From Anadara kagoshimensis (lineage: Eukaryota; Mollusca; Bivalvia; Arcoida; Arcidae): a stretch of DNA of 64,000 nt. Both the position numbers and the translations under genes were made by a program. This document shows positions 581 through 59,512 of this stretch, piece after piece (the first letter of the stretch is position 1; each line of letters starts with the position of its first letter). The notes under the pieces were generated by a model. The model did not search any database. It was not told where the DNA came from and worked only from the letters and a program-made list of their open reading frames with translations. The stretch spans positions 50,458,234-50,522,233 of the forward strand of contig CM037869.1 of NCBI GenBank assembly GCA_021292105.1. The letters run 5' to 3'.

Positions 581-629
581 CATTCTATTATATATCATAA
601 TTACATATTATACCAGTTTTAATTTAACA

Positions 630-673
630 GCACTAGACGGCCGTTTCGGAATACAATTCCTCATCAGTAGTGC
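630..673 (-). ncRNA. Type I hammerhead ribozyme, intact core
   Basis: On the minus strand: stem I GCACTA, core CTGATGA, stem II GGAAT/ATTCC with TGT loop, core GAAAC, palindromic GGCC loop on a two-pair stem III, cleavage triplet GTC, then TAGTGC closing stem I. Every catalytic core base is present. Minimal stem III with a palindromic loop is known from Penelope-like and retrozyme hammerheads and is thought to work as a dimer. Confidence 0.85.
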
Positions 674-967
674 TTGGACCAAAATTATGAAACCAAAATT
701 ATTTTGAAGAAGTTAAAAAACTACCCAAAGGACCAGAATATATTTTACCAAATTAAACTAAGGAAATACTTTGCATGAGGGAGTATACCTAAGTTTTGAG
801 AAATTTCAAATTTTGATTTGCAGGAAATTTAGACAAGTATAGTACATTTCTGACAAGAATACGAAATCATTGACTACTGAGTTTGTGATATCCTCGGGGC
901 ACCAGCAATCAGCAGAGATATCGGCTCAGAAGTTTAAATTACATATTAAACCAGTTTTAATTTAACA

Positions 968-1011
968 GCACTAGACGGCCGTTTAGGAATTCAATTCCTC
1001 ATCAGTAGTGC
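968..1011 (-). ncRNA. Hammerhead ribozyme motif, core mutated
   Basis: Same layout as the 630 copy, but GAAAC reads TAAAC after stem II; the changed G is a catalytic base, so this copy is probably inactive. Stem II arms still pair (GGAATTGAATTCC). Confidence 0.75.
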
Positions 1012-1305
1012 TTGGACAAAAATTATGAAACCAAAATTATTTTGAAGAAGTTAAAAAGCTACCCAAAGGACCAAAATATATTTTAACAAATTAAGCTAAG
1101 GAAGTACTTTGCATGAGGGAGTTTACCTTAGTTTTTGAGAAATTTCAAATTTTAACTTGCAGGAAATTTAGACAATTATAGTACATTTCTGACAAGAATA
1201 CGAAATTATTGCTACTGAGTTTGTGACATCCTCGGGGCACCAGCCACCAGCAGAGATATCGGCTCAGAAGTTTAAATTACATATTATACCAGTTTTAATT
1301 TAACA

Positions 1306-1347
1306 GCACTAGACGGCCGTTTCAGAATTCAATTCCTCATCAGTAGT
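1306..1347 (-). ncRNA. Hammerhead motif, core intact, stem I split by insertion
   Basis: CTGATGA, GAAAC, GGCC and GTC are all present, but the CACTA-end foldback element has landed in stem I right after AGT. Confidence 0.75.
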
Positions 1348-1971: not shown

Positions 1972-2033
1972 AGTGCATGGACCAAAATTATGAAACCAAA
2001 ATTATTTGACGATGTTAAAAAGCTACCCATAAA

Positions 2034-6861: not shown

Positions 6862-7053
6862 GAATTACATATTATACAGCACTAGACGGCCGTTTCAGAA
6901 TACAATTCCTCATCAGTAGTGCTTGGACCAAAATTATGAAACCAAAATTATTTTAAAGATCTTGACGAGCTACCTTAAGGACCGAAATAAAGGACCGAAA
7001 TATATTTTACCAAATTAAGCTTAGGGAATACTTTGCATGAGGGAGTTTATCTT

Positions 7054-7095
<42 letters not shown>

Positions 7096-7185
7096 CAAAT
7101 TTTAATTTTCAGGAAATTCAGACAATTAAAGTATATTTCTGACAATAATTCGAAATTATTGCCTACTCCGTTTGTGATATATTAG
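6862..7185 (-). repeat. Retrozyme-like unit, single copy with poly-T
   Basis: Body matches the 338-bp unit (gtgcttggaccaaaattatg, gcatgagggagtttat). A run of about 37 T at 7056-7092 replaces part of it. Confidence 0.75.
6879..6922 (-). ncRNA. Hammerhead ribozyme motif, core intact
   Basis: CTGATGA, GAAAC, GGCC and GTC all present; stem II closes with one G-U pair; stem I GCACTA/TAGTGC intact. Confidence 0.8.
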
Positions 7186-8792: not shown

Positions 8793-9504
8793 TTAAGTAT
8801 CAAGCATGTCAATTGCCCTGTCGATTATATCATTTGAATCTGAATCATTTGAATCAGATTCTGACAAAGTTGTTATTGATTCGCTTGAATTTTGTGAATC
8901 TGGCTTCGATTCGGTAAAAACTGGTAATGGTACATCGTTTGAATAGGGCGATGCTTGAATTGGTCCGTTTGCAGCTGGTAAACTAGGCCTCGATTCGTTT
9001 GAAGCAGGAAAACTCGGCCTTGATTCGTTTGAAGCAAGTAAACCTGGCCTTGATTCGTTTGAAGCAGGTAAACTCGGGATTGTTTCATTTGAAGTAGGTA
9101 TTGATTCGTTTGAAGCAGGTAAACTCGGGCTTGTTTCATTTGAAGCAGGTAAACTCGGGCTTGTTTCGTTTGAAGCAGGTAAACTCGGGCTTGTTTCATT
9201 TGAAGCAGGTAAACTCGGCCTTGTTTCGTTTGAAACAGGTAAACCCGGCCTTGTTTCGTTTGAATCAGGTAAACCTTGCCTTGATTCGTTTGAATCAGGT
9301 GAAATCGGCATTGATTCGATTGAAGCAAGTGAACCCAGCCTTGATTCCTTCAATTTAAATTCTATTGTATTTGCTGATGTTGGCCTTCCGTTTGTAGGTC
9401 CAGCTGTTTCGAAGAGAAATGAAGACAGGTTGCTGTTTGTCCTTTTCTTGAAAAAACTTAAGGTATCATCTTCCTTTGGCTTACCACACGCAATGATGGA
9501 GTGA
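8793..9504 (-). CDS. Gene 1 exon 19: cytoplasmic tail with decapeptide repeats
   Basis: 712 nt ending TAA at 8795-8793. After a 60-residue lead (CGKPKEDDTLSFFKKR, FLFETAGPTNGRP) come about eleven copies of a ten-residue unit, SNETSPSLPA and variants (SNESRPGLLA, SNETRPGLPV), then an acidic end with SESDSNDSDSND. Serine- and proline-rich, low complexity, probably disordered. Gene 2's tail has no such repeat. Long open frames on other frames here are shadows of the 30-nt repeat. Confidence 0.85.
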
Positions 9505-12500
9505 CTGAAAATAAAAGATTCAAGTATGGAAAAATAAACTTATAAAATAGTTTTGAAGACATCGTATCTAATAAACAGCAAAAGCTTGAATTGTTTCAGT
9601 CTGGTATTTACGTAACTTTTGTTAAATAAACCTGAAAACATCTAAATAATTGTTATTTTTCAATTTCAATATTGCTTAGCTTACAAAGTAATAGTTTTCC
9701 TGTATTGTAAATGTTCTTGAAAACGTTGGGTGTTTAGTACATAATTTTAGTTACAATTTTTATTTTCTGCTATTTAATTATATTTTAAATATATAGGTGT
9801 TTAGTGATTTTTCTATGATCTCGTACGTCATGCTTAAAATCTATCTGAACAAATCCATCGTAATTTCTGTCTAATTCTAGGTCTGAAAAGCATAACTTTT
9901 TTGTTCATTTTTTTCGATGAGCGTTTGGTTGATTTAGATTCAAAACCAATAGTAGTCATACGCCATGTATTAGTGTTCACCATATGTAAAAGCCGTACAC
10001 CCTGTGGATATTTTATAAAGACAATTTGAATGGGTTTCTACATGAAGGAAACCATGCAATCAATGAAGAAACTTTTGAGACATCGGGAAAATAACTGTTG
10101 GACTAGAAAAACATCTGAAAAAAAAAAAAATAAAATAAAATAAAAAATAAACGCCTTAAGTTTTAGTTTCTGCCGTTTATCTTGTCTTTTGCAGTACACG
10201 GCTGTCGTTTCAATATAAATTCTTCACCAGTAGTGACTGGACCACTATTGTGGAATTATAAAAATTAAGATGTTGAAACTACAAGAGTCTGTTCTTAAAC
10301 ATATAACAGAATTTGCCTATAATAAGTGTCCTATCAACCCTTACATATGAAAAGTATTTCAAGTGTTATTCGTATGATATGTAGAAATGTATATTTACCG
10401 ACAATTGGTCTTTTTCACAATACAAACAGCGACAACTACTGCTACAACTAGAAAAATAATTGCGGCAAAAACACTAAGTCCAGTTATTAAGTCATTGTTG
10501 CTCTTTTCTGATTTAGTTGCACAATCTAAAACATAATAATTAAATTAATTATTTCTGAACACAGATAATAGTTTTTTAATATTTATTTTTGACAGCATAG
10601 ATTGAATCAAAAGAAAAAAGTTCAAAAACAAAGTAAAAACTGGAAAAATCGAGATTAACGAAACTACTAAGGTGCGCCGGAAGGGTAAGTAACCGGTGAT
10701 AAGAATTCAAACTGAATTTTGATTACACACCTGATGGCTGTAACTACCTAAACAGAAGATCCTCACTTGCCCTTCCAGACCATCGACCTCATGGACATCA
10801 GGGAAATGTAGGATTGGTGATCTTGAAGGTAAGGAACCTCTTATTCAATTAGCTGCTCTACGGTAAAACATGTCAGTAAAATATATCATTTTCAAATATT
10901 CAAACAATACTTTCTATCTTTTATTACTGAACATGTTTCAATTTAGTAGCCCTTTGAGGCCGTTTTGGAACACAATTCTTATTAGCAGTTCTAGGCCCGA
11001 AGTTGTGAAAATCTAAAATTTTTTAAGGTTTTGAAATAACAAAAGTCAAAGGAGCAAATTTATATTTTATTCTTTCATACTTCAATTATTAATACCACAA
11101 AACCATGCCTCAATCCAAAACACAGTAAAAAAAACTTTGAAACTGGCGACCCAAGTTAACGTATTTTTTTATCAACTTTATATATCTAAATGGAATTGAA
11201 ATACCAAATGATATGTTAGATATCTCCGTGAAAAAGTTTAATTGCTGTTATCATAGTATTGTTAATAACTTTGATGTCTTTGTGTCCAGTATTGCCCTGG
11301 AAAGTTCACGTGTCTAACCTAACTTGCCAGTTCCAAAGTTTTTACTTTGCTTCTGGATTGTGCTTCGGACATAGATTAGTATGTTTTTTTTATATCTCCG
11401 TCAAGACCTAATTTCACATAAAAACAAAACTTGAAAATATCTACCGAATGAAAATGTTGCAAACTAAGGAGAGTATAGGTTATAGTACTTACCACCTTCA
11501 TTTGAGGTTGACCACTTGAATTTTCCTTCGTACTGTTGCATATACTACACGATTTGATACATCGATAGCATTATGAATATGGCAAATGTCTTTTATGTAG
11601 CAATAGTTGTTCTGAAATAATTATATTCATTTCATTTATTAACAACATACGCGGAATATTTGAAGCTCAAATATATACAGTAAATCAAGTTAATAATGCA
11701 GCCCTGAGAACTGTATTTTAAGTTTGTAATACAGTGTATAGAAGATTAAACTGGTCCAGTATATGACTTCATACTATCCATGTTTTATACGCGTGTTCGT
11801 TATATTCGTGTTTTACCATATAAATATAATGCGTAAACGGTATCAAAATATAGCGTGTGTCATGGTCTTGAAATTTAATTAATTACACTACTTTTACTTA
11901 TCAAACAAATATGAAATGAACAATGTTTTAAGAATTTTCTATGTGCTATCGACTAAGCATGGTAACTTTTCTTAAGATCTCGGTGCACAACTGTATAAGG
12001 TATTTGAAACCGAAAGAATATAAGAAGTGTTAAAAAATACACATTGAGAAATAGAAACGATATAAAGCAATCGAAGTTTAATACAATACGTTTTTTACAA
12101 CTTCTTGTGTGTCCTGTACTACAATGTCAATAACTATTTGACACGTTTCTTTATGGATGACAACATACCGGTCCGTCGTCACTACAAAGTCCAAAAGAAA
12201 ATCTTTAAAGGATATTCATCATGTTCTCGGTCAAAATTTGTGACTATTTGTGACTATGCCTCTGTTGTTGTATCGGTTTGTTGACCAATGTAGAGGCTCG
12301 GTCATTTCACTTGCGATGAACGTGAAGATAAATACCGAGCACCTCACTTCCGTGGTGTCAGTTTTTTGTTTTTGTTTTTTTTTTTTTTTTTGGCGGAGGG
12401 GGGGGGGTAAATAAGCAAACGTCTGACGATGTTGTTTTCTGAAAAAATACAAGTTCTGAATTGTGATAGTTAAGAACAGTTGTCTACATTAAATATTTAA

Positions 12501-15500: not shown

Positions 15501-18500
15501 TCTTGAAAGCTAATAAACTAACCAGTGTTTCCAGCATATCCTTGGATATATTTGACGTCCTATAATTCCATGTTTCTTTCACACAATTTTGATTACACAC
15601 GTGACGGGTGTAGCTAGCTAAACTGGAGGCGCTTACCCTTCAAGAGCACCCGGCCTCACTTCCCTGGTGGAAGTTTACGTGTCTAACCTAACTTGTCAAT
15701 TCCAAAGGTTTAACTTTGCTTCTGGATTGTGATTTTGACATAGATAACTATCTCTTGCATTTCGAAATTATCGGTCTTCAATTAATTGTCGGACTCATAC
15801 TCGGTAATATATGTTTTCTTTATTGTAAAAAATCTAAAACCCGATCAGACTGTAGACAATTTGTGTCTTAAACAGTAATCGCTACATAATCTCTGTTTAA
15901 TATTATATAAACAAACGACTGAAATGTATTCGTGACACTGGTTGTTTTGATTTGTTACATTTTTATCGTGTTAAATGGTGTTGATATACTATAGAATTTC
16001 TCCGAGCTTCGGTTTTAACATTTGGAACATAGTAAAATTTACCATAAGGGACTGTTGGTGCAGTCATGTCATTTCGGTCAATATCGTCTAATGGGTAGTA
16101 TTCAATCAATTAGTGGAAAAAGTAGTAAATGTGAGATCCAAATAAAAATCAGATTCTTACACGAATGATTGTTTAAAATTGTATTCATGAAAAAAGTTGA
16201 ATAACATTTTTGAAACAGATTTTAATAAATTAAATAATACAGAAACACGCAAATTTAAGATCCTGGTTTTATTATCGTATAACAAAGAAAGATTTTTGTC
16301 TTTTTCTTATGTTTTCTCGTCTTTAACAAAATTACTGCGAAACCATATTTGTTACAATAATTTTATGATGCATAATAACCATATCTACATAAAAAAAGGT
16401 CGTGGTTTCCTAATGGATAATACGTAGGTCTACAAATTCAGGGTCTCTCACAGCTGTATTGAGTGCCGTTCAGACTACAAGTGAAAAAGTTAAATTTCCT
16501 TGACATTGGTCTTTACTAGTTCAACCGGTGCCAGAATGATGTGATGTGGGAGTCGGTCGCCTTAACTGTGCCCTGGTACAACACGGGCCACAAAACGCAC
16601 GAACATCACATGCATACACAAAGTTCTTCATAGAATTTAATAAAATAAATCTCGTCGCGAACAGATAAAAAAACTGCTGATGCGACAAGCAATAATTAAC
16701 AACAACATCTATATGATTATAATTACATATGTGTAATCAAAAACAAACTTACTAATCCATGCCCCAAGGTCTTTTATTACATGCGTTATTTCGGGTTATT
16801 ATACCTTAAATTCACATATAAGGCGTTAATACAAAAATAAAGTGATTTAAAATAATAGAAAATGATAAAATTATCTGAACTAACAGCAATGTATTTGACT
16901 TACCATAAGATCTGCCACACACAGATTTAAGGTTGAATTGTCTATCAGATCTGCTCCCGAGCATAGCTGAATTATTTCCGATTCCAGAAATTTTGGGAAC
17001 AACGATCGTACGCCTCTGCTTGGGAATATGTTGTAGATTTCTTCTTTCTCACTTTTATTTCATTCTTAAAGAAAAAAAAATGAATTTGTAAATATTAATT
17101 GGTAGGTAAGAAAAGTGGCGATTATTTTTCTGATCTCGGGATTTATGATTACAGAAGTGACAGATACTAAAATTAAAGTAGGTGTAATAATAAAAGCTAC
17201 AACGCGTTTGCTTGAGTATATGTTACAAATCTCGTTTGCGTTTTTTTTTTTTTTGGCATTCTTAAAGAGCAATTTTTAAATTTGTCAATGTTGGTTGGTT
17301 GGTGGTTAGGTAAGATGACGATTGCTTTACTGATCTCAAGGTAAAAAAGACAACCAAAAGTACAGGATTTGATTAATTATTCTTACATGCACAGATGGCC
17401 TATTGGAATTTTAACCATCAGTCCACGACAAAAACCGATTCCTGAATTTGTAACATAATGACAGGTGTCCAAGTCAGTGTAATTGAATTCACGTACTCTA
17501 TATCTGCCTTAAATAATGTAAAAATTCTGAACATTTCCAGAATAGAGAAATATAAACAAAACTTTACCTAATAAACCGTGTGTAAAAGTAAAAAAAATAA
17601 CCAAACCAACTAGTACATAAACATATAAAACTCCCATCGGGTCTGCATTGCTTCTTGCAAATGAGGTAAAATTAAAACTGGTATAATATGTAGCCGATAT
17701 CTCTGTTGGTGGTTGGTGCCCCGAGGATATCACAAACTCAGTAGCCAATAGTTTCGTTTTATTGTCAGAAATATACTAAAATTGTCTAAATTCCCATCAA
17801 GGTAAAATTTGAAATTTCTCAAAACCTAAGTAATACTCCCTCATGCAAAGTATTTCCTTAGCTTAATTTAGTAAAATATATGTTAGTCCTTTTGGGTAGT
17901 TTTCCAACATTTACAAAATAATTTTGGTTTTATAATTTTTGTCCAAACACTATTGATGAGGAATTGTTTTCCGAAACGATCGTCTAATGCTGTAAAAATG
18001 CTGTAAAATTAAAACTGGTATAATATGTAATATTAGGAATAATGCACACGATAAATTTTTATCTTAAATTTATCTTAAGTCTCTTTTTTATTATTGAGTA
18101 AACAACCTCTATCCATATCGAAACCATACCAAGAAAGAGAGATCTAATTGGATGAAAACCGACACAAAATTTATAATATTTCATTAAGATTAGAAAACTT
18201 TACGCATTACATATGCTAATTTTAATTAATTATTTTGTAAACAAAAGTTTTTATTTTTCAACACTAGACTGTTTCGGGATTACATTTGTCAACAGTTATA
18301 AATGTTTGAAAACTGAAAATTGATATATTGCAAGCTGAAATGAGAAACATTGACCAATATCTATATTCCAACATGCCATGAATTATTGAGGGATTTTACA
18401 ATTTTTAAAAAAACATAATTTAAACTAATACTTTATCTTGCAATACTAATGAAAAATTCTATATATTAAGTGTATTCATTCTGTTTTATGAATGAGAGTC

Positions 18501-21500
18501 GGGAATAGCATATTTAACACGGACTGTTTCCTGTTAAATATGTTATTCCTGACTCTCATTAATTAATCGAATTAATGCACTCAAATAGAATGTTATTTCT
18601 TAAATTTACAATCATAATATATTTGATAACATGTCAGAAATGTCAATTTATCGCTACAATAATTAATTTTATTCAAGATTTCGACAAACATATGGGATTG
18701 ATGGAACAACCTTGTTCCAAATAAGGATAGTCACGTCGGGACTAGACTTGTATGCTGGCCAATGAAACAATACAGGACGTAATATGATGGCATTCGTGAC
18801 ATAATCGCATAGTTAAACGTTACGAGGTAATGACCCAATACTGAGTTCAAGGAACTAAATGCCAGTAAAACATAAGATTCATCTAAAGATGGTCAATTCC
18901 AATTGTAAATATAATGTAATGCCTTCTGGGTAAACGTTGATTAATCCACCAGGAGTCAACTCTCACTTATTGTTTTATAACGTACCTTGTTTGCGTCTTG
19001 GATAAAATATTTATGCATTGGGTGAACGGAACGCTTTGCCTTATGATGGTCACAAGTAAATGGTCTACCTCTTGTGTCAATACAATCTGCATACCCTCGA
19101 TAATCACATCTTGCCTCTGGGATACTAATTCCAACATTTTGCTCTGCACTATTTAACTCACAGTAGCAAAACTGGATACTATTTGGCATCGGAGAAAGCG
19201 AGTTATACTTGAACACGACATTGGCATGAGGAAAGAGATTTTCACTTTCCATTAACCTAACAAAAAGAAAACTATAATTAATGACAGATTTGACACTTTT
19301 ATGAAGAGAAAGCAATAAACGATAAATGCAAAAAGATGAAACGCATAAAATACTACGATGCAACTTTAATAAAAAAATTTCTTTGATATATTTGACGACA
19401 AAAAGTTGCATGTTATGTCATTTTCAAATTTTGATTGCATAGGTGGTGTGTGTAGCTAGTTAAACAGGAAGTGCTTTGTATCCTGAGAATCTAGCCTTTT
19501 CCCTTGTCGGTATGTTTATTTGCTATATTCGGTTTCAACTTTGCTTTAGGATAGTAATTATTATTGGATCGTTTTGTTTTACTTGATTACAATCATCTTT
19601 TTACTTAAATGTTCTTTCTACACGTATTTATAAATAAAAAAATGCATGTCAAGATATTTTGAATGCATCAAGATTCACGCGTTTTACCGCGATAGAGCAT
19701 ATCCAAAATTATCGGAACATTAATAATGATATCGACTTTAAACAGATGGATATATTGAAAGGCATTAAGTGGTTTCATTTTTTGTAACTTTTTTTTATAT
19801 CGATGAAACCTATCCTGTATATATTCCACAATGAATGATTTCGTTAAAATATAATAATAATGCAAGCATATATGGAGCTAATATTTGTATATAGTACAAT
19901 GTAACGTGAATTTCTTTTATTTAAACATGGTACTTACTTCCAGCTATTTGAGAATTGATCAACGTGTGTAAAGGGAAAAACCGGCGTAGGACAGTTTACT
20001 CCTGATTGAAGTTCCCCGGTTCTTAATTGAAAATCATTCGAAGGATTTCCGTCAAAAGATCCACAAAGTCCTTCGGTTTTGCCTTTATCCAGAACAGACG
20101 GGTAAATATAAATATTTATCCAATCCGATGATATTATCCGCACGTAAACAATGGTTCCAGTTGATAGAAAAACCTAAAATGTATAAAGCCAAAACAACAT
20201 CAAACATTGTTTTAAAATTACATATTATACAGTCTTTATTTTTTAAAGCATTAAACGACTGTTTCGGAATACAATTTCTCATCAGTAGTGTTTGGACCTA
20301 AATTATGAAACCAAAACTTTTTTATCTAAAATGTTAAACATAAACCCAAATACAGAACCATAATCAGCTGAGAAAATAATTTGCATGAGGTAGTATACTT
20401 TATTTATCGATGAATTCGGATTTTAAATAGCAGGAAGTTTAGACAATAGTGCATTCCTGACAATAATACATAATGTTTGTCTACTGAGATTGTGATATTA
20501 GAAAAACCGCAGAAATACCGGCTATTTGATTTAAATTACATATTATACCAGTTTTAAATTTACAGCTTTAGACGGCCGTTTTGGAAAACAATTCTTTATC
20601 AGTAGTACTTAGTCTAAAATTATTAAAAAAAATTACGAAGATGTTGAAAAGAAACCCAATTGATTTTTCACATTTCATTCCATGGTCCCTTTCCAAAACT
20701 GTTCAGAGAAATAATATAAAATTTTAACCACTGAGCTCGTGTTTCTGCTGGTGGATGTTCTCGAGAATATCACAAACTCAGCAGGCAATTATTGGGTACC
20801 ATGTCAGAAATATATTATTTACTGAATTTGCTGCCGGTTATAGTCAAGTACGGTATACTCCCTCATGCAAAGAATTTCCTTTGTTAAATATGGTAATATA
20901 CATTTTGGTCCTTTGGACATCTATTCCTTATTTTACAAAACATTGTTTGCAATTTTGGTCCAAACACTACTGATGGGGAATTTTATTTAGAAAGCTCCTT
21001 TATTTCTAAATAGTTAAATGCACATATCATGTGTAACCAGTAATACATAAGAACGTACCCTTCGGAGCACCGGGCTTTGCTTTTCTGGCATTTAACTCAG
21101 TTTGCTTTAGTTATTTTTGGCTTTTAATTTAAACAAAGACGATAATGTTTGTTTTACAGAAGCACAAAAATTGTTCTATGCAAGAACATATTTTAGTTAT
21201 TTTTGGCTTTTATATTAAACAAAGACGATAATGTTTGTTTTTATAGATGCACAAAAAATGTTCCATGCAAGAACATATTTCATGAACGCTTCTACTTTGT
21301 TATATTTACATTATACTTAAAGTCGCCTTTTTGTAATGATAATTCACTTACCTCATACTCGGAACCTCCTTTGCTTGAAGCTTTTAGTAATCCATCTCCA
21401 CATCGCATGAAGCGATCAAACTTTACTGGATAATCTGGACATACGTATATCATAAAAACGTCCCTTCCTGCATTGATGACAATACCACAGAAGCAGTATG

Positions 21501-24500
21501 CACCCCAACAAGTAGTTGTTTTTGCTTGGATCTAGAAATAATCAATAACCGTACATATGCATTGTATGAGATATTATCAAGTGTATATATAGTGTTATAG
21601 CACTATAAATTCAATTGTTTTTTTTCCTGAAATGTACAGATGTTTACAAATTACAGTAACAGCAATTAAACGACGTCTAATGTATATTCATCAGCGCAAA
21701 CATGTGCATTTATAATCCCTTGACCTACATTTAAGACTGGCAAAGTTTGAATTTATTAAATGAACTGCCGCTAAAATGGTGAGGCTTGGTGGTCCAAACA
21801 AAATAACAGAATTATCTATGTTTAAATATAAGAAGAATTCGAAAACGAAGAATTGTCTTTACTCACCGATATATTTAATGTGGTATGTCTGTACATCAAA
21901 TATGCCCCTGCCATTTGCATTTCGTAGTAACTAGATAAATAGTCATTGCAAAACAATAAATAATAAAATAAACACCGTGGCCTTGGTCATTTCAAAAATG
22001 CAAAGTGAAAGCTTTGAGACTAAAAGTGCACCGGAAGGATAAAGATTCCCTGTTGAGCTGCCTAAACCCGTCATATTTAAAATCTCATTGTGAATGAAAG
22101 GAACATGTAACTATGTGCGTCAAATACATCCAGGGTAATTTTGGGTACAGAAAACATCATACTTTTCAATATTACTGTGATGACGCCAATTAAATGTTTA
22201 AGGACCTTGATTAAAAAGAACGGATTTATTCATCTAAAAACATTACGGTAGGTCATTAGTTTTGACTAAAGGGGTACCTTAGGTTTCTTAACCTGATTAT
22301 TTATTTGTTTATTTACAAAATTAATTTAGTTCCATTTAAATAAATCTTACTTTCCGTCAAAGGTGCGCATATGTGGGTCAACAACACCATAGCATACTTT
22401 CTCTCTCCATACCTGTACTTCTGTTGGGATAATGATCACCTTAAAAAAAACCAAAAAAGTCTCTACATATCAAAATGAATATAAATAAATAAATCGAAGA
22501 TTTGACGTCTTAGTAGCATGGTTAAAACGCTTTCGAATAATCGAATTCTGATACCGTTAAAGATAAATGTTTATCGATATTTTTTCTAGCACTCCAAAGA
22601 GAAACAAATGTTAAAGTCATCAACTAATCAGTCATTTGAAAAACAAAGATGCCATTCCAAATGGAATAAATCACAAGCCCATCACAAATTAAACGTAAGG
22701 AAGCAAAAATTCAATGGCAAGATTTCCGAAGATGATATCGATACCAAATCTATACCACAGTAAAATACAAAGATAGACATATTACCTGTACATCATCTAG
22801 CACCGTTCCTTTGAGTATTTCGTTGAATTGTGTATTACTAACTCTTAGTTGTAGACTGTACATTCTGTCTCTGTCAAAAGTGGTTTCGGTTCTGTGTTTT
22901 ACCAACATTGGTATTTCATTTTCCCATTGTCTTGTATTAAACCATTCTGTTTCATCACCTTTAGCTCCTCTCATGTTTACTCCGCATCTTTGATTGGATT
23001 GTATGTTTTGTCCTTTGCATTCATATGCATTATAATCTTCAAACATCCATATGCCATACTCGCAAAAACGACTTGGATTGTATGATGGGCATGGTATAGG
23101 AACGGTCGGTTTTAGATATATATATGCTTCACCGCCGGATTGGACATAAATCGTTCGATTCAAAACCTAAATAGGAAAACAAAATAAAACTATAAATTAA
23201 AATAAGCCGATCGAAACGTGTCTCTATCGGTTTGATTAAGTGTTTATCATGCAATCCATGATAAGAGTTTTAATGTAGCACTCTTAACTTCATTATTCGC
23301 CTCCTAGGAACTCAATTCAATACAATAAATGACCAATAAAATAATTTTTTTTAAACACTTCAGCTGAAAGAACTATAGCAAACACTGAAAAATATTTCAT
23401 TCAAATACCACAATGCTCAAAAGAGTATAAAAAGACATAAGTCTACTCAATGGCACAAGTATACAACATGTTCTCATTATTGCATCGTATAGATTGAAGT
23501 CCAAATGATCGGTTAAAGTGTTATCGTTGCGTAAAAATACCTTCTGGTGCAACAAAATAAAACTGGGGAAGGTGTGAAAACAACATACATTAAAGATCAA
23601 AAGACATCTTTGTGTGTTTTATAATCAACATCAAACATAAACATACCAGTGAATTCCAAATCCTTAAGCAAAGCAAACAGTTTTACAATTCTCAAATTAA
23701 GTTAATTATGTGGATATCTATTAGGAGAGTGAGACTGTGTGTTTGTTGTAAGTACTTCGTGTTTAGCTAGCTAAGTGCCGGGTGTGAAAGCGATATTGTA
23801 GAATGAAAGGAATATGAGGCGTCACATATGGCCATATAGAGTAATTTCGCAAACAGAGATATAATACTTATTATTGTGTGATTACAGCCATGCATATTTT
23901 TGAGGGCCCTCTTACCCTTACGTCAACAATTTATTTGTTTGCATCGTTGCATAAAATTCCTATTTTTAGAACAAGTACTACCATAGCGTATTTACTGTCA
24001 TGTAACTACACGACATAAGCAGGGAAGCAGGTTTTTTGCTGCATAGAAAAGGAAAATATACGTCATGATGTTTGTCACACGCGGCTTTATTAATATTATC
24101 AAAGATGGTCTTCAGTCTTATTCAGAAAAAGTATATTTTACATCTGGAATCAACCAAATGTGGATTCTCAAAAATTCTAAAGAATTACTTGAACATCTTG
24201 CCTCTAATACTTTATCTCATGTAAAAAGTATTTAACATTTGATTTTTCTACACTATACACCACAAGCCCTCATTCTAAATTGAAAGAACGTCTTAAAGAA
24301 ATTATTCACTTGTCTTTCTTCTACAAAAACGGTAAGCCAAGATACAAATATCTGGTGCTGAACAGGGATTCTGGTTATTTTGTCAAGCATCATACGGATT
24401 CCAAACAAAAATATACTGAAGATACCATCAACAAAATGTTGGAGTTTTTGATAGATAACATATTTGTTGTGTTTGGTAATATAGTTTTTCAGCAAACAAT

Positions 24501-27500
24501 CGGTATACCAATGGGTACAAACTGTACACCATTGCTTGCTGATTTGTTTCTTTATTCTTACGAAGCAGAATTGATGCAGAACCTTTTTAAATCTGGATAG
24601 AAAATTGTCGCCAAATCATTCAACTCAACATACAGATACATAGATGACGTTCTGTCTCTTAACATTCCTAAATTTGTAGACTATGTAAATGTCATCTATC
24701 CTAGTGAGCTTGAAATAAAAGACACGACTGATTCCTCAAGTTCTGTTTCATATTTAGACCTATACCTGAACTATGACGCACAAGAAAGGCTACATTTGAA
24801 ACTTTATGACAAAAGTGATGACCTCACGTCATCACAGTATTGTGATAAGTTTGATGTCTCTGTGTCCAGGATTGCCTTGGATATATTTGACGTCTCATAG
24901 TTCCATGTTCCTTTCACACAATTTTGATTACACACGTGACGGGTGTAGCTAGCTAAACAGGAGGTGCTTACCTTTCCGGAGCACCCGGCCTCACTTCCCT
25001 GGTGGAAGTTCACGTGTCTAACCTAACTTGTCAGTTCCAAAGTTTTTACTTTGCTTCTGGATTGTGATTCGGAAATGGATAGGTATGTTTGTTTTTGATC
25101 TAACTAACATTCTTACCCTTATCCCAGCATAGAAATCCGCGCTGTGAGAATAATTGCCTGGCTCTCCTTGTATTGATTTCACCGCTATTACACCACAAGA
25201 TAACTGAAAGTAAAAAAATAATATCTACATGAAAAACGTCTGTAGAGCAACTTCGGTTGCATGTTTTATCTTTCTTGAAGTAATTAAACATAATCAAAAC
25301 TAAAAATAACTTTCAATGTTCATATCCCAAGATAATATAAACCAATGAAGATTGGATAAATTCTGCAAGCGTTACCCTTATTGACTAGCACCTTAAATAT
25401 TCATTGAAAACAATACAACAGTTATTTGTATACCTTAAATTATCACTTTACACAAATACAACAGTTATTTTTATACCTTAAATTATAAGTTATTTTTACA
25501 CCTTAAATTATCACTTTACACAAATACAACAGTTATTTTTATACCTTAAATTAACATTGTACACAAGTACAACGCAGTTATTTTATAAAACATCCAAAGT
25601 TACTGTGAAAATATGGCATCAAAAGTCCCCAACAATAAATTCCCAATATACATCTTAGAATGAATTTTATAAAGTAAAGTAAATCCGATCTCTTTGTATA
25701 TACGAGTTATAACCCTTTAAACGACACTGTCTTACAGGTTCGTATACAGCATTGCATTTTAAGGTTTATTGTTGTGTTTGTAAATAGGCCGTCTTAACAA
25801 ACAAAGACTACAGTCCAACAAAGACTACAGCCTAACAAAGACAACAGTCAAACCTGCTCTCAAGGTCACTTCTATGTTAGGACTATCTTGCTTTAGATGC
25901 TAGTAAAATGTATATTTTTGTACATCTTCATAACAAATTTTGGTTTAATAATTTTAGTCTAAGCACTACTGACAAGGATTTAAATTCCGAAACGGCCATC
26001 TAGTGCCGTTAAACAAACTGGTATAATATGTAATTTATACCAATAATTCTTTATTTGGGTTATTTGAACATGTATAAAAGGGTCATCTGTCCATCTTTAC
26101 AGCTTCCATTGGGTGACCATTATTAACGGTTATGTCCCTACTTTAAGGGAAAATATTAATATATAGACATATTATTTTAAAATTCTCGGGGTCCAGTGCA
26201 TTGTGTCATTTACGCATCAGTTATCATCAAAAACAAACATACTAATCCATGTCTGAATCACAATCCAGAAGCAAAGTAAAAACTTTGGTACTGACAAGTT
26301 AGGTTAGAAACGTGAACTTCCACCAGGGAAATGAGGTCGGGTGCTCCAGAAGGGTAAGCACCTCCTGTTTAGCTAGCTACACCCGCCACATGTTAAATCA
26401 AAATTGTGTGGAAGGAACATGGAACTATGAGAGGTCAAATATATCCTGGGCAATCCTGGACACAGAGACATCAAACTTATCAACAATACTATGATGACGG
26501 CCATAAAATTAGTAAATGATTCTTATGTAAAGTTTTTCTTACCATTATATTTAGTTTGTAGTTCCTGGTTGTCAAGTCAATTTGTGTCAAACGCCCTGAA
26601 TTCGCCATGTCACTCTCAGTTAAATATCCGGTTTCTTTAATTTTGGCTGAATTTACAAACCATGTTATTTTGTATAAAAGTGCTTCCGTCGTTTCTGTAG
26701 TAAAACTACAGGTGAAATAATATGTTGGGAAAAAAGGCACTGTGTCAAAATCTACATCCGGAATAACAGTAACCGAGCTTGGTGTCCAAGTAGGTGCTCT
26801 ATCTAAAATAGAAAGAATATTTTTTGTCAACTTTCCCAGATTGTCAAGGTGCATATAAATATTTTCGAAAATATATCAAGTTACAAAAACGTACACAACG
26901 TTTAGTGGTAAAATGAGAGTAACAAAAGAGTGTTCTCTCCAGATTTGAAATAGGTTCTACGTATTTTTTGTTATTTTCTTCTCGTAATAATCTATTATCA
27001 TAATATAAAATATATAACATTCAGTGTTGGTTTAATATCATAATATACAATAATTTCTGTTTTATTCTATGAGGTGTATATTGTCAGGGTTATACATACC
27101 TGAGAAATTCCGTGATGCATCTGAAAATGAAAAATCAAAACAGAAAAACGACATTAAATAACACGCGTGCGTGGTAAATAACTATAATGCTTAACACAAT
27201 TTGATAGAACTTTTGTTCCCTGTACAAGAAATGAAGAAGATGGCACAAGACAGAGACAGGTTAAACACTTTAGTCCCTGCCCTATGTACCAACGGGCGTA
27301 AAAAAGACTATTTAGGTACAGGAACGTTATATAATAAAGCATGCCTGGTGTCTACAAATAAATTGCTAAAACAGGAATATTACAATCCTAAGGTAGCCAA
27401 GCCTTAAAAAATGTATGGTCATCATTACGGTAATGCTGATAGGTATGATGTTTAAATTTTTGATTTGTTAATATAATGTCATATAAATATTACCTTATGA

Positions 27501-30984: not shown

Positions 30985-31165
30985 ATATATCTCAAATTTC
31001 TCAAAACTAAGGTATACTCCCTCATGCAAAGTATTTCCTTAGCTTAATTTGGTAAAATATATTTTGGTCCTTTGGGTAGCTTTCAACATCTTCAAAATAA
31101 TTTTGGTCCAAGCACTACTAATGAGGAATTGTATTCCGAAACGGCCGTATAGTGCTGTAAAATTA
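30985..31165 (+). repeat. Partial retrozyme-like unit with degenerate hammerhead
   Basis: atactccctcatgcaaagta, tttggtccaagcactact. Motif at 31112-31155 has CTAATGA (one core change) and GTA as triplet. It lies about 340 bp upstream of the gene 1 start. Confidence 0.7.
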
Positions 31166-31572
31166 AAACTAATATAAATATATTGTATCTGTACAATCAT
31201 GATCATATCACAAAAATACTAACCAATGTCCAAATCACATTGAATTTGTCAAAATATTAATGTATAATTATGTAAAACACGTTTTGATATTTGGCAAATC
31301 TAGGCATCCGACTTTCATGCTTTTATCACTAATTAAATGTGGACTACCATAGAGCAAGCCAGATCGGCTTGTGTGGAAGGATTGCCTTTTCGCGTATCAT
31401 CGCCCTGAAAGTTGATAAAAACAGCAAATTATGAGAGGTCAAATATACATACAGTTTAATTTTAAATATAGATATATCGAATTAATCAATAATATTTTAA
31501 AAACTACTGTAATACTTTTAAAGTGCCTTGATTAGCTTAAGCCTGAAATGTCCTTGTTTCAATGCTGTGTGC

Positions 31573-38899: not shown

Positions 38900-39375
38900 A
38901 TTGTTGCCTTAATTTGGTCCTTTATGTTTCTTTTAATCTTTTCATCATCTTAAAAAAGGTTTTGTTTCATATTTAATGTCCAAGCGCTACTGATGAGGAA
39001 ATGTATTTCGGAATTGCCGTCTTGTGCTGTAAATTAAAACTGGTATATTTTTGAGTTTAAACTGAGCCGGTATCTCTGCGGGTGGCTGTTGCCCGAGGCT
39101 ATCACAAACTCGGTACGCAAAAATTGTGTATTATTGTCAAAGATTTATATTGTATAAAATTTGCTGCTAGTTAAAATTTGATATTCCTTAAAAACTAAGG
39201 TATGTTCCCCTGGAAAGAATTTCTCTGCTAAATTTTGTAACTTTTTTACCTTTTGGTTTCTGTTTAACATCTTAAAATAAGTTTTGGTTTCATAATTTGG
39301 TCCAAGTCTTACTGATGAAGACTTGAAATCCAAAACAGCCGTCTAGTGTTATAAAACTAAAAGTGGTGTAATATG
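38900..39375 (+). repeat. Two tandem decayed retrozyme-like units
   Basis: Hammerhead-like motifs at 38983 and about 39305, roughly 322 bp apart; body tgttgcccgaggctatcaca and ttttggtttcataatttggt between. Cores are damaged (GGAATT for GAAAC; CAAAAC). Confidence 0.65.
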
Positions 39376-39750
39376 TAATAATTAAATGACAAGCCCAAAG
39401 AATCTGCAGAGGTAAAACTTGAAAAATCGCTGCTTGATATAGATGTCATCCATATATTGTTTTTATGAAGAAGAACCTTATATCAAGTAAAATTCAATCT
39501 ATGTAATTGTATGATTTAATGACATTATTTTATCCAGATTTTGAAAGGCTTTGCATTAAACATAAATAAATAGAAACTGCAATAAATATATCAAAAACAA
39601 CATCACAACAAGGTTTTGTCTAAAAGATAAAAGAACAGAGAAAAGAATAACTATTCCAACACATCATTAAGATCGAAAAAATAAGACATCTATATAGTGT
39701 TAATTGGACGTAGTGGTTCTGTTTACGTTTACCGAGATTGATTTCTTGTT

Positions 39751-57700: not shown

Positions 57701-59512
57701 CTTTATAAGTTTCAAAGTCTCCACTTGGGTTTGAAATTGTGCTTTTCACATGGAAAATAATGTTTGTTTTTTATCAAAATAGATATCGTATAGATTGCGA
57801 TTTGTTTCCAATTTGGCCCTTAGTTTAAGTTTAGCCATAAAAAGCATGGTTCACTGCTATATATCATTTATTACTGAGACGAATTTTCTTGTATATTTAA
57901 ATTTCAGAAAGGGTATTGTTTCATTAATGGGGCATGTATATCTAATGGAACTGTCAATCCGTCTCAAACCTGCCAGAATTGTAATGCGGCTAAAAAGAAG
58001 TTTGAATGGTCATACTTACCTAGTAGGTTTAATTTTGTGTTAAATAATATAGTGATGGTCTTTTTCTTATATTATCACAATCTACAAACACATTATTTCT
58101 ATTGATTTCCCTTTGTTTTGGTTAGCCTTCCGGTGCACCTGGTCTCAATACCCTTGTGGAAACCTGTGTGCTTATTTAATTAGCCAGTTTCAATATTTTT
58201 ACTTTGGTTTGGGATTGTGATAAGGACATGGATTGATATGTCTGTTATAAATGTACATGACAGTACTTAACTTAAGATGGAACACACGCCTTTGCATCAC
58301 AAGCAGCATTTAATATGAATTTCAATAAGAGCACCGTGCTGTAATCGAACAAAGATAAAGCAGACAACAAAGTACAAGGCGAGTTAGCCTATGTTTTTAG
58401 GACTTTTGTACCATTTTATGTTAAGGTTATATTCCCAAAATAGCGAATAGTAAAATAGATATTGAACAGATTCTAAAATATTTGAGATGGTTAGAGTGTC
58501 CGCAGTGGTACTATAGCCATACCACATTATACTGGAAAACCTAAATATTACATATTATACCAGTTTTAATTTTACAGCACTAGACGGCCGTTTCGGAATA
58601 CAATTCCTCATCAGTAGTGCTTATATAATAGTGCTCATATAGTAGTCGTAGTTAGAAATATAGGCTCTTTTTTTTCCATGTTTGGCTGTTTTATTATTTA
58701 TTTATAAATTGTCATGTTATCGATTGTAATGGTTGTTGCTAAGAAATTAAACATGTTATTCACTTACAATTTTTTTTTAAATTTTATTTTCAGAATGTGC
58801 CATTTTGTCGGGAAGCTCCGACGATGACAAACTTCGAGGATGGGTGATTGCTGTTATAACTGTTGGTCTATTGGTCATAGTAATTAGTGTTACAGTTGTC
58901 GTGATAGTAAAGAAATTTGGCAGTAAAAGGTAGAATAAAAACAAATATACCGACTTAAGTTCAAGTAAAAATGGATCGGTATGTATGGTTATGGTTAATA
59001 AGTACACACCAACTATGTGGTGTGGAAGTATATAATATACGATATAACTTCAAATCAAAGATTTAAGATATCTTAAAGCCTTTAATTAAATATAAAATGT
59101 GTTACTTCATATATCTATCTTTAACAGTATCAAGAATTTAGTGTTTTCGAAACATTAGTGAAGCTTCACTACCATGAAAAAAGTTATTTAAAACATGTTT
59201 ATTGTGTTAACAAATTTGGTAGTTTCAAAATTTTAATTTTGTTTTGGGGTTTTGATGTGGACACTGTTTTGTATTATGTTAGTCTGTAAAAATTTGAATA
59301 AACTTTTAATTAACAGGACAAATAGAAACTCAATTGCAGATTTTAAAGAAACGACCGATCAAGATGACTCTGTAAATAAACCAAGCTTTCCCAGCAGTAG
59401 AATATTTGAGACAGAAGGATCTAACAAGGAAAAGGAATGTTACCGGTGCACGCCAGATTCAAGCACCGGAGACATACGACCAACTGAAGAAAAATCTACC
59501 ATGCAGGATTAA
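44987..59512 (+). CDS. Gene 2: VWDE-like single-pass membrane protein, 20 exons seen, 5' end missing
   Basis: Join: 44987-45094, 45326-45442, 46335-46532, 47161-47322, 47668-47685, 48595-48848, 49210-49296, 49814-50212, 50569-50651, 51288-51351, 52025-52207, 53850-54103, 54526-54832, 55376-55512, 55719-55887, 56493-56686, 57052-57312, 57908-58022, 58794-58929, 59317-59512. Paralogue of gene 1 with two extra EGF exons at the N terminus. Order: EGF, EGF, D8C-like, Cys module, microexon, Ig-like, VWD, PRRKRD site, EGF, beta-rich module, Cys module, transmembrane helix, tail; about 1,150 residues plus signal peptide. Exons up to 54832 are open; those at 55376, 55719 and 57052 have frame breaks, so a literal reading stops at the TAG at 55508. 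The first exon should end in phase 1 and was not found with confidence. Confidence 0.83.
45326..45442 (+). CDS. Gene 2 EGF exon 2
   Basis: 117 nt, phase 1-1. ALDPCLNVICHNGGTCKT then YYCMCNAGFDQATNCQT, a six-Cys EGF domain. Its end (ATNCQT) matches the previous exon, suggesting an exon duplication. Absent from gene 1. Confidence 0.88.
45688..45727. repeat. Poly-T run
   Basis: About 40 T. Long homopolymers of this kind are error-prone in assembly. Confidence 0.9.
46070..46215 (-). pseudogene. Possible Penelope-like RT fragment, much decayed
   Basis: Minus frame FNFSFLCSNKP...VSAVIGVLRGVVD resembles the NFPFLCSN...YGVYI stretch of the better fragments. Low similarity. Confidence 0.35.
46335..46532 (+). 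CDS. Gene 2 D8C-like exon
   Basis: 198 nt, phase 1-1. EIKVDPCDGV, LCDQTLTERWYKAYGYEM and NRCGSQNPIYL follow the D8C pattern (DPC, CD, WY, CG). Counterpart of gene 1 exon 2. Confidence 0.87.
46607..46760 (+). repeat. Repeat B, 5' half
   Basis: cccatactaatccatgcccg to ctcctgtttagctagctaca. In the gene 2 intron after the D8C exon. Confidence 0.75.
47161..47322 (+). CDS. Gene 2 Cys module exon
   Basis: 162 nt, phase 1-1, same length as gene 1 exon 3. SIPNDTEIHNVTACLRD, IKKCNADTVFYLSPTP and SSYCF. Confidence 0.87.
47668..47685 (+). CDS. Gene 2 18-nt microexon
   Basis: Acceptor tttttag, 18 nt coding DQVDMS, donor gtaaat, phase 1-1. Same place and phase as gene 1's 21-nt microexon; sequence similarity is limited to the leading Asp and the Ser before the donor. 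Confidence 0.55.
48142..48365 (+). repeat. Repeat B copy
   Basis: cttatccaagtccgaattac to gggatgtaaaatatatccaa. Confidence 0.75.
48595..48848 (+). CDS. Gene 2 Ig-like exon
   Basis: 254 nt, phase 1-0. DKAVTWTPSSMHINF, LVYSCNFSF, MIKWYINDIKVAESEF. NFT and NFS sequons. Counterpart of gene 1 exon 5. Confidence 0.85.
49210..49296 (+). CDS. Gene 2 exon closing the Ig-like segment
   Basis: 87 nt, phase 0-0: IKCSVTAAYSTESPPGVE, then SPGFYAGMK. Confidence 0.82.
49370..49465 (-). repeat. Repeat B end fragment
   Basis: caatggtggaagttcaagtg, cagttccaaaggttcaactt, agattggtatttttg. Confidence 0.55.
49814..50212 (+). CDS. Gene 2 linker module before VWD
   Basis: 133 codons, phase 0-0. HTPSISIERGKSGN, then CPKY, VCKTR, RCGLEMEGG, TEWFLKELW and LDNVV. 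Same Cys plan as gene 1 exon 7. Confidence 0.86.
50569..50651 (+). CDS. Gene 2 VWD start
   Basis: 83 nt, phase 0-2. VNVYTSGTWMNKKC then YAVIDPHMMTFDG, the VWD opening motif. Confidence 0.87.
51288..51351 (+). CDS. Gene 2 VWD second exon
   Basis: 64 nt, phase 2-0: PYEMQMEGTFLFYKHTERNA and a final Ala. Confidence 0.86.
51636..51702 (+). repeat. tRNA-like SINE head
   Basis: gtcctcagtggtcgaacatt (A box) and gaggtttggatccctgg (B box). Confidence 0.45.
52025..52207 (+). CDS. Gene 2 VWD middle
   Basis: 61 codons, phase 0-0: VIIKTTSCWSSRIFCTCGIV then GRDVFVINTCPG and RFYRCNEGLL. Confidence 0.87.
52565..52815 (+). repeat. Repeat B copy
   Basis: aaacaaacatactaatccat to gacacagagacgtcaaactt atcaac. 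The 68-codon frame here is repeat sequence. Confidence 0.78.
52944..53058. repeat. Near-perfect palindrome, about 55-bp arms, 4-bp loop
   Basis: Left arm taagaaatgacattctgatc atggtatttcaaggggtaat gaaagatagtttggc; right arm is its reverse complement with one mismatch and one indel. In the gene 2 intron within the VWD region. Confidence 0.85.
53850..54103 (+). CDS. Gene 2 VWD C-terminal half
   Basis: 254 nt, phase 0-2. WDVYIYPTNIDVGKTSGLCG, TLDGYCDNDFVLRDG, then a PNDWLWYP insertion and FSNSW. GLCG..DG...NDF is the VWD closing motif. A degenerate direct repeat of the last codons follows in the intron at 54130-54180. Confidence 0.87.
54526..54832 (+). CDS. Gene 2 post-VWD Cys module with PRRKRD site
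   Basis: 307 nt, phase 2-0. ITDDENLFPGPN, LQLCYCPYNSLEN, CSYKEYADCDYDPGREI, then SSPRRKRDTM. RRKR (54761-54772) before Asp is a strong furin-type consensus (R-x-K-R). Confidence 0.87.
55376..55512 (+). CDS. Gene 2 exon with one missing base
   Basis: RSTTMSTADAMTACNTVFNE, CFDLDLVDEEYFNF, then TAG at 55508-55510. The paralogue has LCVADLM where another frame here gives CVQDLV. 137 nt against 138 for phase 0-0. The break fits one T lost from the T run near 55494. Confidence 0.72.
55719..55887 (+). CDS. Gene 2 helical module and EGF start, frame broken twice
   Basis: ATSDISVAYSHRER and KSECADVLSRITPSD in frame 0 (TGA at 55827); after about 55809 frame 2 gives EYPDMVTVIEANNCPNECSN and HGMC. Allowing one missing base restores exactly 25 residues between the two Cys, as in gene 1. 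The exon also ends two bases short of the phase needed by the next EGF exon. Confidence 0.7.
56493..56686 (+). CDS. Gene 2 EGF completion exon
   Basis: 194 nt, phase 1-0, open. NCTCENGFAAKDCSMN closes an EGF domain; then GFCDTSDGLCTEIEVYGDPF. Counterpart of gene 1 exon 15. Confidence 0.85.
57052..57312 (+). CDS. Gene 2 beta-rich module, frame broken at both ends
   Basis: Frame from 57060 reads NGTKTFYSPVQTTGEQQ, HGYTFAVSLDGSIFS and KCQFYQVAGGS, aligning with gene 1 exon 16. The acceptor side is one base short (A run at 57059-57061), and the donor side is two bases short near 57297-57303, giving a TGA just before the donor. Confidence 0.7.
57610..57775 (-). repeat. Repeat B, decayed and internally deleted
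   Basis: tatggccgtcatcacaatat tgttgattagtttgatgtg, then ttgtgcttttcacatgg and atgtttgtttttta. Confidence 0.6.
57908..58022 (+). CDS. Gene 2 short Cys module
   Basis: 115 nt, phase 0-1, open. KGYCFINGACISNGT, TCQNCNAAKKKFEWSYLP. Four Cys. Confidence 0.83.
58545..58625 (-). repeat. Partial retrozyme-like unit
   Basis: acatattataccagttttaa t followed by the hammerhead and gtgctt. Only the ribozyme end of the unit remains. Antisense in the intron before the gene 2 transmembrane exon. Confidence 0.75.
58577..58620 (-). ncRNA. Hammerhead ribozyme motif, fully intact
   Basis: All 44 bases agree with the copy at 630-673: CTGATGA, GGAAT/ATTCC stem II, GAAAC, GGCC, GTC and GCACTA/TAGTGC stem I. Confidence 0.82.
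58794..58929 (+). CDS. Gene 2 transmembrane exon
   Basis: 136 nt, phase 1-2. CAILSGSSDDDKLRG, then the hydrophobic span WVIAVITVGLLVIVISVTVV and VIVKKFGSKR as stop-transfer. Confidence 0.87.
59317..59512 (+). CDS. Gene 2 cytoplasmic tail and stop
   Basis: Joins in phase 2 after SKR. TNRNSIADFKETTDQDDS, SFPSSRIFETEG, CYRCTPDSSTGDIRPTE and MQD stop. Length 64 residues; polar, no repeat. FETEG/FETAG and the Cys are the only hints of kinship with gene 1's tail. Confidence 0.85.

Follow-up and report, generated by a model that had tools for sequence, protein, structure and literature searches.

The tandem array at positions 599 to 1347 on the minus strand of the window (the whole 64,000-nt stretch of Anadara kagoshimensis contig CM037869.1 analysed here) raises the question of what kind of element it represents, and of how such elements are copied. 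The insertions in this genome bear on the enzyme that mobilises animal retrozymes and on the form of RNA on which it acts. No prior work on such retrozyme junctions was found by title or by the start of the abstract in the literature searched, which was mostly without subscription papers.

The 338-bp tandem claimed in an earlier note on this DNA was borne out by Tandem Repeats Finder, which gave a period of 338 bp, 2.2 copies and 94% matches over 599-1347. Unit 1 (599-936, minus strand, 338 bp) was delimited by the repeat finder and by similarity, and in RNA sense the insertion has its 3' end at position 599; unit 2 (937-1274, minus strand) is 94.1% identical to it. The 3' part of unit 3 occupies 1275-1347 on the same strand, and its 5' continuation, 91.5% identical to unit 1, is found at 1972-2029 (minus strand), past an inserted foldback element. 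This foldback (1348-1971, 624 bp) was recognised from its sequence by CACTA...TAGTG ends and a 3-bp target duplication, AGT, and lies within the third hammerhead. A second, related foldback with CACTA/TAGTG ends and the target duplication AAA, identified likewise, also resides in unit 3 (2034-2657). Both foldbacks contain 20-bp internal repeats resembling TTCCGGAATAATC. Rfam microRNA matches at 1618-2392 fell below the cut-offs and were discarded as being the foldback elements.

Each unit carries on the minus strand CTGATGA and GTC together with a stem II of five pairs and a stem III of two pairs capped by a GGCC loop; three such motifs with CTGATGA, GGCC on a two-pair stem III and GTC had been pointed out before, and all are present. 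The TGT loop of stem II that had been ascribed to every copy holds for unit 1 and not for units 2 and 3, which have TGA. The closing stem I, also ascribed to all, is complete in units 1 and 2, while the foldback leaves about four pairs of it in unit 3. The one copy said to be mutated in GAAAC is unit 2, which reads TAAAC and has thus lost G12; units 1 and 3 keep GAAAC. Unit 2 was the only damage flagged in the earlier note, and that of unit 3 had been overlooked. The type I hammerhead of unit 1 (630-673, minus strand) therefore has an intact core, that of unit 2 (968-1011, minus strand) is predicted from its core to be dead, and that of unit 3 (1306-1347, minus strand) is disrupted in stem I. 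Cleavage of the intact hammerhead is presumably between 636 and 635 by hammerhead core numbering, which we take to place the cut between u301 and u302 of the RNA-sense unit (u1-u338).

In small-region Rfam searches both 630-673 and 58577-58620 matched Hammerhead_1 (RF00163) with 28.1 bits (E=1.8e-5). A covariance-model match above threshold at 630 and 58577 had been named beforehand as what the identification should stand or fall by; both matches lie below the gathering score of 34, so that formally the identification falls by this standard, yet they span the full model (1-45). A low Rfam score would fit a hammerhead whose stem II loop has three bases and whose stem I has no internal loop. The two hammerheads were not listed in whole-window Rfam searches, and an RF00163 search of 940-1346, which covers units 2 and 3, gave no match at E<=1. 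Genome-wide, no RF00163 match was obtained at E<=0.001 among the 73 of 112,716 candidates that were scored, a search in which 14 controls were also silent. The CTGATGA..GAAAC pattern occurs five times in the window versus a mean of 0.18 and a maximum of 2 in shuffles. Comparison of 12 copies revealed no ribozyme pair changed on both sides, and paired cells were no higher than in shuffles; the ribozyme core is kept no better than the remainder of the unit, and the predicted structure of a 338-nt circle is not unusual (z 0.2 and -0.6). Retention of a palindromic stem III loop for dimeric ribozymes was considered and rejected, as 62 copies showed no excess of palindromes (GGCC in 47, one other palindrome, GATC).

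Metazoan non-LTR retrozymes are described, in the part of PMC7229834 consulted, as small tandem repeats of low GC that have a type I hammerhead and do not code for protein. The array displays the same features: no listed stop-to-stop frame of 90 aa lies within 599-1347, and a GC content of 33.4% is below 50% as in that group. No constant flanks were seen around the retrozyme insertions read. Its assignment to the metazoan non-LTR retrozymes is supported by unit size and tandem arrangement, the type I hammerhead, the missing long ORF, the low GC and the thousands of dispersed copies. The earlier wording that the array is or was an animal retrozyme fits in its second half. As a single ribozyme of the three is intact, the release of a 338-nt monomer by cuts at adjacent ribozymes, which had also been put forward, is not expected from the array at present. 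The array is a relic, a decayed old insertion of a kind of element already known.

The unit matches at ten further places in the window (E<=1e-8). On the minus strand these include a 76-bp 5'-truncated copy with an intact hammerhead (58547-58622, by similarity and RF00163; hammerhead at 58577-58620), a diverged copy with an intact-looking core at 6892-6916 (6863-7180), and a diverged copy of 1.3 units with two ribozyme motifs (20216-20659), the latter two recognised by pattern and similarity. The plus strand carries, by similarity, a copy of about 85% comprising one unit and 27 nt (17666-18031), a diverged 1.3-unit copy (38939-39379), and 5'-truncated copies of 121 bp (25915-26035) and 184 bp (30994-31177, 87%). 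A run of 37 T is present at 7056-7092, within a diverged retrozyme copy. The retrozyme is very abundant in the genome, as exact patterns counted in the 1.115-Gb assembly (36 contigs; reversed controls 0) gave 6,691 matches to the 18-nt 3' end, a number that includes internal sites, and 1,377 to a 23-nt tandem junction. A 33-nt pattern covering the ribozyme from G8 to within stem I, in which the stem III loop could be any sequence, was counted 3,986 times. The same insertion was found within an apparent mariner-like transposon on two chromosomes (L010 and L011). The host element at these loci was considered as a partner and rejected, since the retrozyme sits, as read, inside the transposon; it seems to have been carried along by it.

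Other features were noted in the window and the genome. A tRNA-like stretch at about 483-575 on the minus strand, in which words resembling an A box and a B box occur, adjoins the retrozyme 3' end; judged by eye it is probably a tRNA-derived SINE, and ARAGORN reported no tRNA for it. A 248-aa frame at 8793-9539 contains a 30-bp minisatellite coding SNETRPSLPA-like repeats. Exon-like frames occur in pairs on opposite strands (18956-19417/54503-54868, 22750-23166/49748-50251 and 26489-26875/48486-48872), their likeness, judged by eye, being as of two inverted gene copies; Pfam gave no family above cut-off in the five of these six frames that were scanned. Four COX1 matches with in-frame TGA at C4:4487676-4537603 represent mitochondrial DNA within a chromosome-sized contig; for a COX1 fragment the top match had 58% identity and the highest value listed was 63%.

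The mode of copying was approached through the ends of insertions, scored on the RNA-sense numbering u1-u338. Sixty loci were read, L001-L030 being chosen by whole-unit similarity and L031-L060 by the exact 3' end, together with incidental copies from the window and other loci. All 27 listed loci of the whole-unit set have their 3' ends at u337-338, and an automatic count placed 23 of its 25 distinct loci at u334-338. The corresponding 26 of 27 in the tail-selected set is partly built in, because those loci were chosen by the tail itself. Among window copies 9 of 17, and among incidental copies 15 of 27, end at u334-338; several of the copies with other 3' ends have diverged or been broken up, one of them being the copy at 6876 with a tail deletion. 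Most insertions read therefore share a fixed 3' end, u338, which lies 37 nt beyond the cleavage site; in the window array the insertion junctions assign this 37-nt segment to 599-635 (minus strand).

The 5' ends, in contrast to the fixed 3' end, are scattered. Loci picked for full length hinted that 5' ends gather at the cleavage site or after a complete turn, an idea that was abandoned when the 47 insertions not so picked showed no departure from a uniform distribution (KS p=0.15); single 5'-end values are approximate, since they are set by alignment. Altogether 70 insertions were evaluated, including two duplicated-locus pairs as well as the window array, in which the foldback insertion determined the 5' end. 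Only two have 5' ends at u300-304. Of the 70, 68 are longer than 37 nt and were thus copied across the cleavage site; 21 exceed 375 nt, and the arrays measured extend from 0.1 to 3.8 units (maximum 3.84). In these 68 of 70 insertions the template ran unbroken through the ribozyme cut site, and therefore the copied RNA was uncut, religated or circular.

The relatedness of units was examined at 12 loci, one of which (L046) is two separate copies. The nearest relative lies within the same locus for 14 of 26 units, against a mean of 0.7 and a maximum of 5 in 500 label shuffles. Repeated copying of a single circle should leave such likeness, and exchange between neighbouring units would produce it likewise. 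The window array is exceptional, as each of its two units is nearer to another locus than to its partner. No excess of target duplications was detected in 46 loci, the longest shared word being 4.67 vs 4.57 +- 0.15. No recurrent second element bearing the tail was found: a collinear retrozyme is missing upstream of 18 among 138 tail-like sites, in which some loci are counted twice, and most of the 18 read as short truncations or broken copies.

Penelope-like elements (PLEs) are regarded as strong candidate movers of animal retrozymes on account of co-occurrence, tandem copies and hammerheads present in both, as stated in the part of PMC7229834 consulted. The Anadara genome contains an abundant PLE (L091/L093) whose ORF has GIY-YIG ahead of the reverse transcriptase. 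By this N-terminal position of GIY-YIG we take it to be Naiad. A fragment of its reverse transcriptase (RT) gave 13,141 first-look candidates in the genome, of which 150 were scored, and the best-ranked species-named relative of the main PLE protein, among the best 120 of 170, is from Pinctada imbricata (55%). Copies of the PLE have a common 3' end, which is unlike the retrozyme tail, and are 5'-truncated; neither L091 nor the 390 nt upstream of it yielded a hammerhead. A fragment of the Naiad-type PLE with RT and 3' end and an internal gap lies at 24099-25099 of the window, 97-99% identical to L091 where matching, and related PLE 3'-end fragments recur across the window.

The two elements share a leader motif. 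Just before the start methionine of the closest homologue, P0001, the PLE leader reads TCTCTGCTGGTGG, seven bases, and CCCCGAGGATA. The well-kept L010 retrozyme unit has both words with equal spacing at u19-49, and the motif begins 18 nt downstream of where synthesis is taken to start. The ungapped composition-weighted score of the L010-PLE match is 43.4, compared to a mean of 19.0 and a maximum of 28.1 in 188 same-length real genome stretches with retrozymes masked. By plain identity over the best 32 nt, the L010 unit reaches 26 and unit 1 of the array 24, where the maximum is 24 in 300 shuffles and 25 in 34 real stretches; a gapped motif score was equalled by 1 of 200 shuffles. In the window array, segment u16-61 of unit 2 (1214-1259, minus strand) carries the motif as tested on the L010 unit, and by sequence comparison that of unit 1 (876-921, minus strand) has a changed first arm and a weaker match. 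The motif arms are slightly less variable than most of the unit in about nine copies.

The two-word motif occurs 2,036 times in the genome (reversed control 0). Among the 47 places listed with their sequence, 43 resemble the retrozyme, another two carry the loop of the PLE, and the last two differ from both in having a third loop. These third-loop variants, ACTCAAGCATC and ATTAAGCATT, at C1:834836-834863 and C1:4249402-4249428, are perhaps another family with the same leader. A 35-nt PLE version of the motif is found 83 times; six of these sites lie 2.14-2.17 kb before RT places, as matched by hand against the 150 listed, and the open frames there range from 188 to 1,067 aa. Many other sites of this version form head-to-tail arrays, mostly with 114-126 bp spacing, which by motif positions include C4:1356248-1365975, C4:52466504-52467412, C5:59583710-59585254 and C10:19777201-19777700. 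The residues that the motif would specify are present in P0002, P0004 and P0029, that is, in 3 of the 120 homologues scanned as protein sequences, many of which begin further downstream. These residues fall in two different reading frames, which suggests that the motif is conserved at the nucleic acid level. Template-jump chimaeras between the Naiad-type PLE and the retrozyme were sought as well; three suggestive junctions among 70 were seen, and a genome-wide pattern count gave 13 matches in one orientation and none in the other, of which one was read as such a junction. Chimaeras of this sort are rare, and the idea was dropped.

An unlikely reading is that another non-LTR element, a LINE, recognises the tail and moves the retrozyme, the PLE motif being a functionless ancestral scrap. 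A truncated 5' end with a fixed 3' end is also typical of LINE and SINE insertions, and the retrozyme tail is not matched by the 3' end of Naiad, both of which agree with this reading. However, the motif adjoins the start site as a recognition element would, it has counterparts in homologues in two frames, its weighted score is far beyond chance, and no other element with the retrozyme tail was seen among the DNA examined.

It is improbable, too, that the array is a pseudo-LTR of a hammerhead-bearing PLE, so that the copies would be fragments of an autonomous element rather than a separate non-coding retrozyme. Type I hammerheads, tandem arrangement and an internal start are known of PLEs from the part of PMC11167929 consulted, and the leader motif common to the retrozyme and the resident PLE favours such an origin. 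Against this, the 70 insertions, which are a small part of all copies, have no common coding flank. Four pairs among them share a 5' flank at the junction, two of which look like duplicated loci with matching 3' flanks, while the other two abut at different unit positions. Furthermore, 6 of 31 PLE loci carry retrozyme sequence, at differing places and on differing strands. An ordinary satellite with a fossil ribozyme, spread by unequal crossing-over, would account for the likeness of units within arrays and for a ribozyme without covariation, and is very improbable in view of short arrays at thousands of dispersed places with a single 3' end and scattered 5' ends.

The preferred reading, to which a probability of about 0.7 is assigned, is that the array is an old insertion of an abundant non-LTR retrozyme copied via the enzyme of the Naiad-type PLE, which would recognise the common leader motif. 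From the sequences we infer that this PLE copies the retrozyme, with cleavage, circularisation, recognition by the PLE and target priming as proposed steps. Tandem copies would be transcribed from the minus strand into multimeric RNA, which the hammerhead could cut. Uncut or religated (circular) RNA would then be bound, through the leader motif, by the reverse transcriptase/endonuclease of the PLE. The cDNA, primed at a genomic nick, would start at the fixed internal site u338, which lies 37 nt downstream of the cleavage site and 18 nt upstream of the motif. Synthesis may proceed over a random distance, sometimes for more than one turn of a circle or along a multimer, and would yield insertions of 0.1 to 3.8 units with one 3' end and scattered 5' ends. 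Several results speak against this scheme: the ribozyme shows neither covariation nor better conservation than the rest of the unit, the circle has no unusual structure, target duplications are not in excess, PLE and retrozyme have unlike 3' ends, chimaeras between them are rare, and plain measures of the motif match are weaker than the weighted one. The more specific proposal, that the retrozyme is a template parasite of the Naiad-type PLE which mimics its leader motif and has its cDNA made from a fixed point of circular or uncut RNA, independently of the ribozyme cut, is given even odds. If it is true, the leader-motif arrays of 114-126 bp spacing would be a second, smaller class of template. 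The insertions give a start site, template continuity across the cut, and one resident PLE to which a short motif points, and the question of the mover becomes a direct test of one protein and one RNA.

Compared to known systems, the Anadara element resembles the retrozymes of Mytilus galloprovincialis, which, in the part of PMC7229834 consulted, are described as being about 350-390 bp long, present in about 5,000 copies, reported as circular RNAs, and provided with hammerheads that lack most loop 1-loop 2 contact nucleotides. By that description both are mollusc repeats with a type I hammerhead devoid of most loop-loop contacts, and they differ in that the unit here is 338 bp. Plant LTR retrozymes are likewise non-coding, with a hammerhead and repeated units; however, according to the parts of PMC4918200 and PMC7761336 consulted they have a type III hammerhead, LTR, PBS, PPT and 4-bp target duplications. 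The retrozyme shares with the resident Naiad-type PLE the leader motif, the pattern of 5'-truncated copies with one 3' end per family, and high abundance, whereas L091/L093 encodes GIY-YIG and RT and has another 3' end. In the part of PMC11167929 consulted, the protein of PAc, a Poseidon PLE of Anolis, starts reverse transcription inside its own RNA downstream of the hammerhead, 111-118 nt into the ORF, with the cut site at +26. The ends of PAc genomic insertions coincide with these start sites, hammerhead mutants leave in vitro insertion unaffected, and AT-rich targets are preferred (PMC11167929). As far as that part of the source goes, PAc is autonomous and coding with a C-terminal GIY-YIG, unlike the retrozyme, which starts 37 nt past its cut site; the two are alike in a fixed internal start downstream of the hammerhead cut, in insertion ends that fall on it, and in a template that is uncut there.
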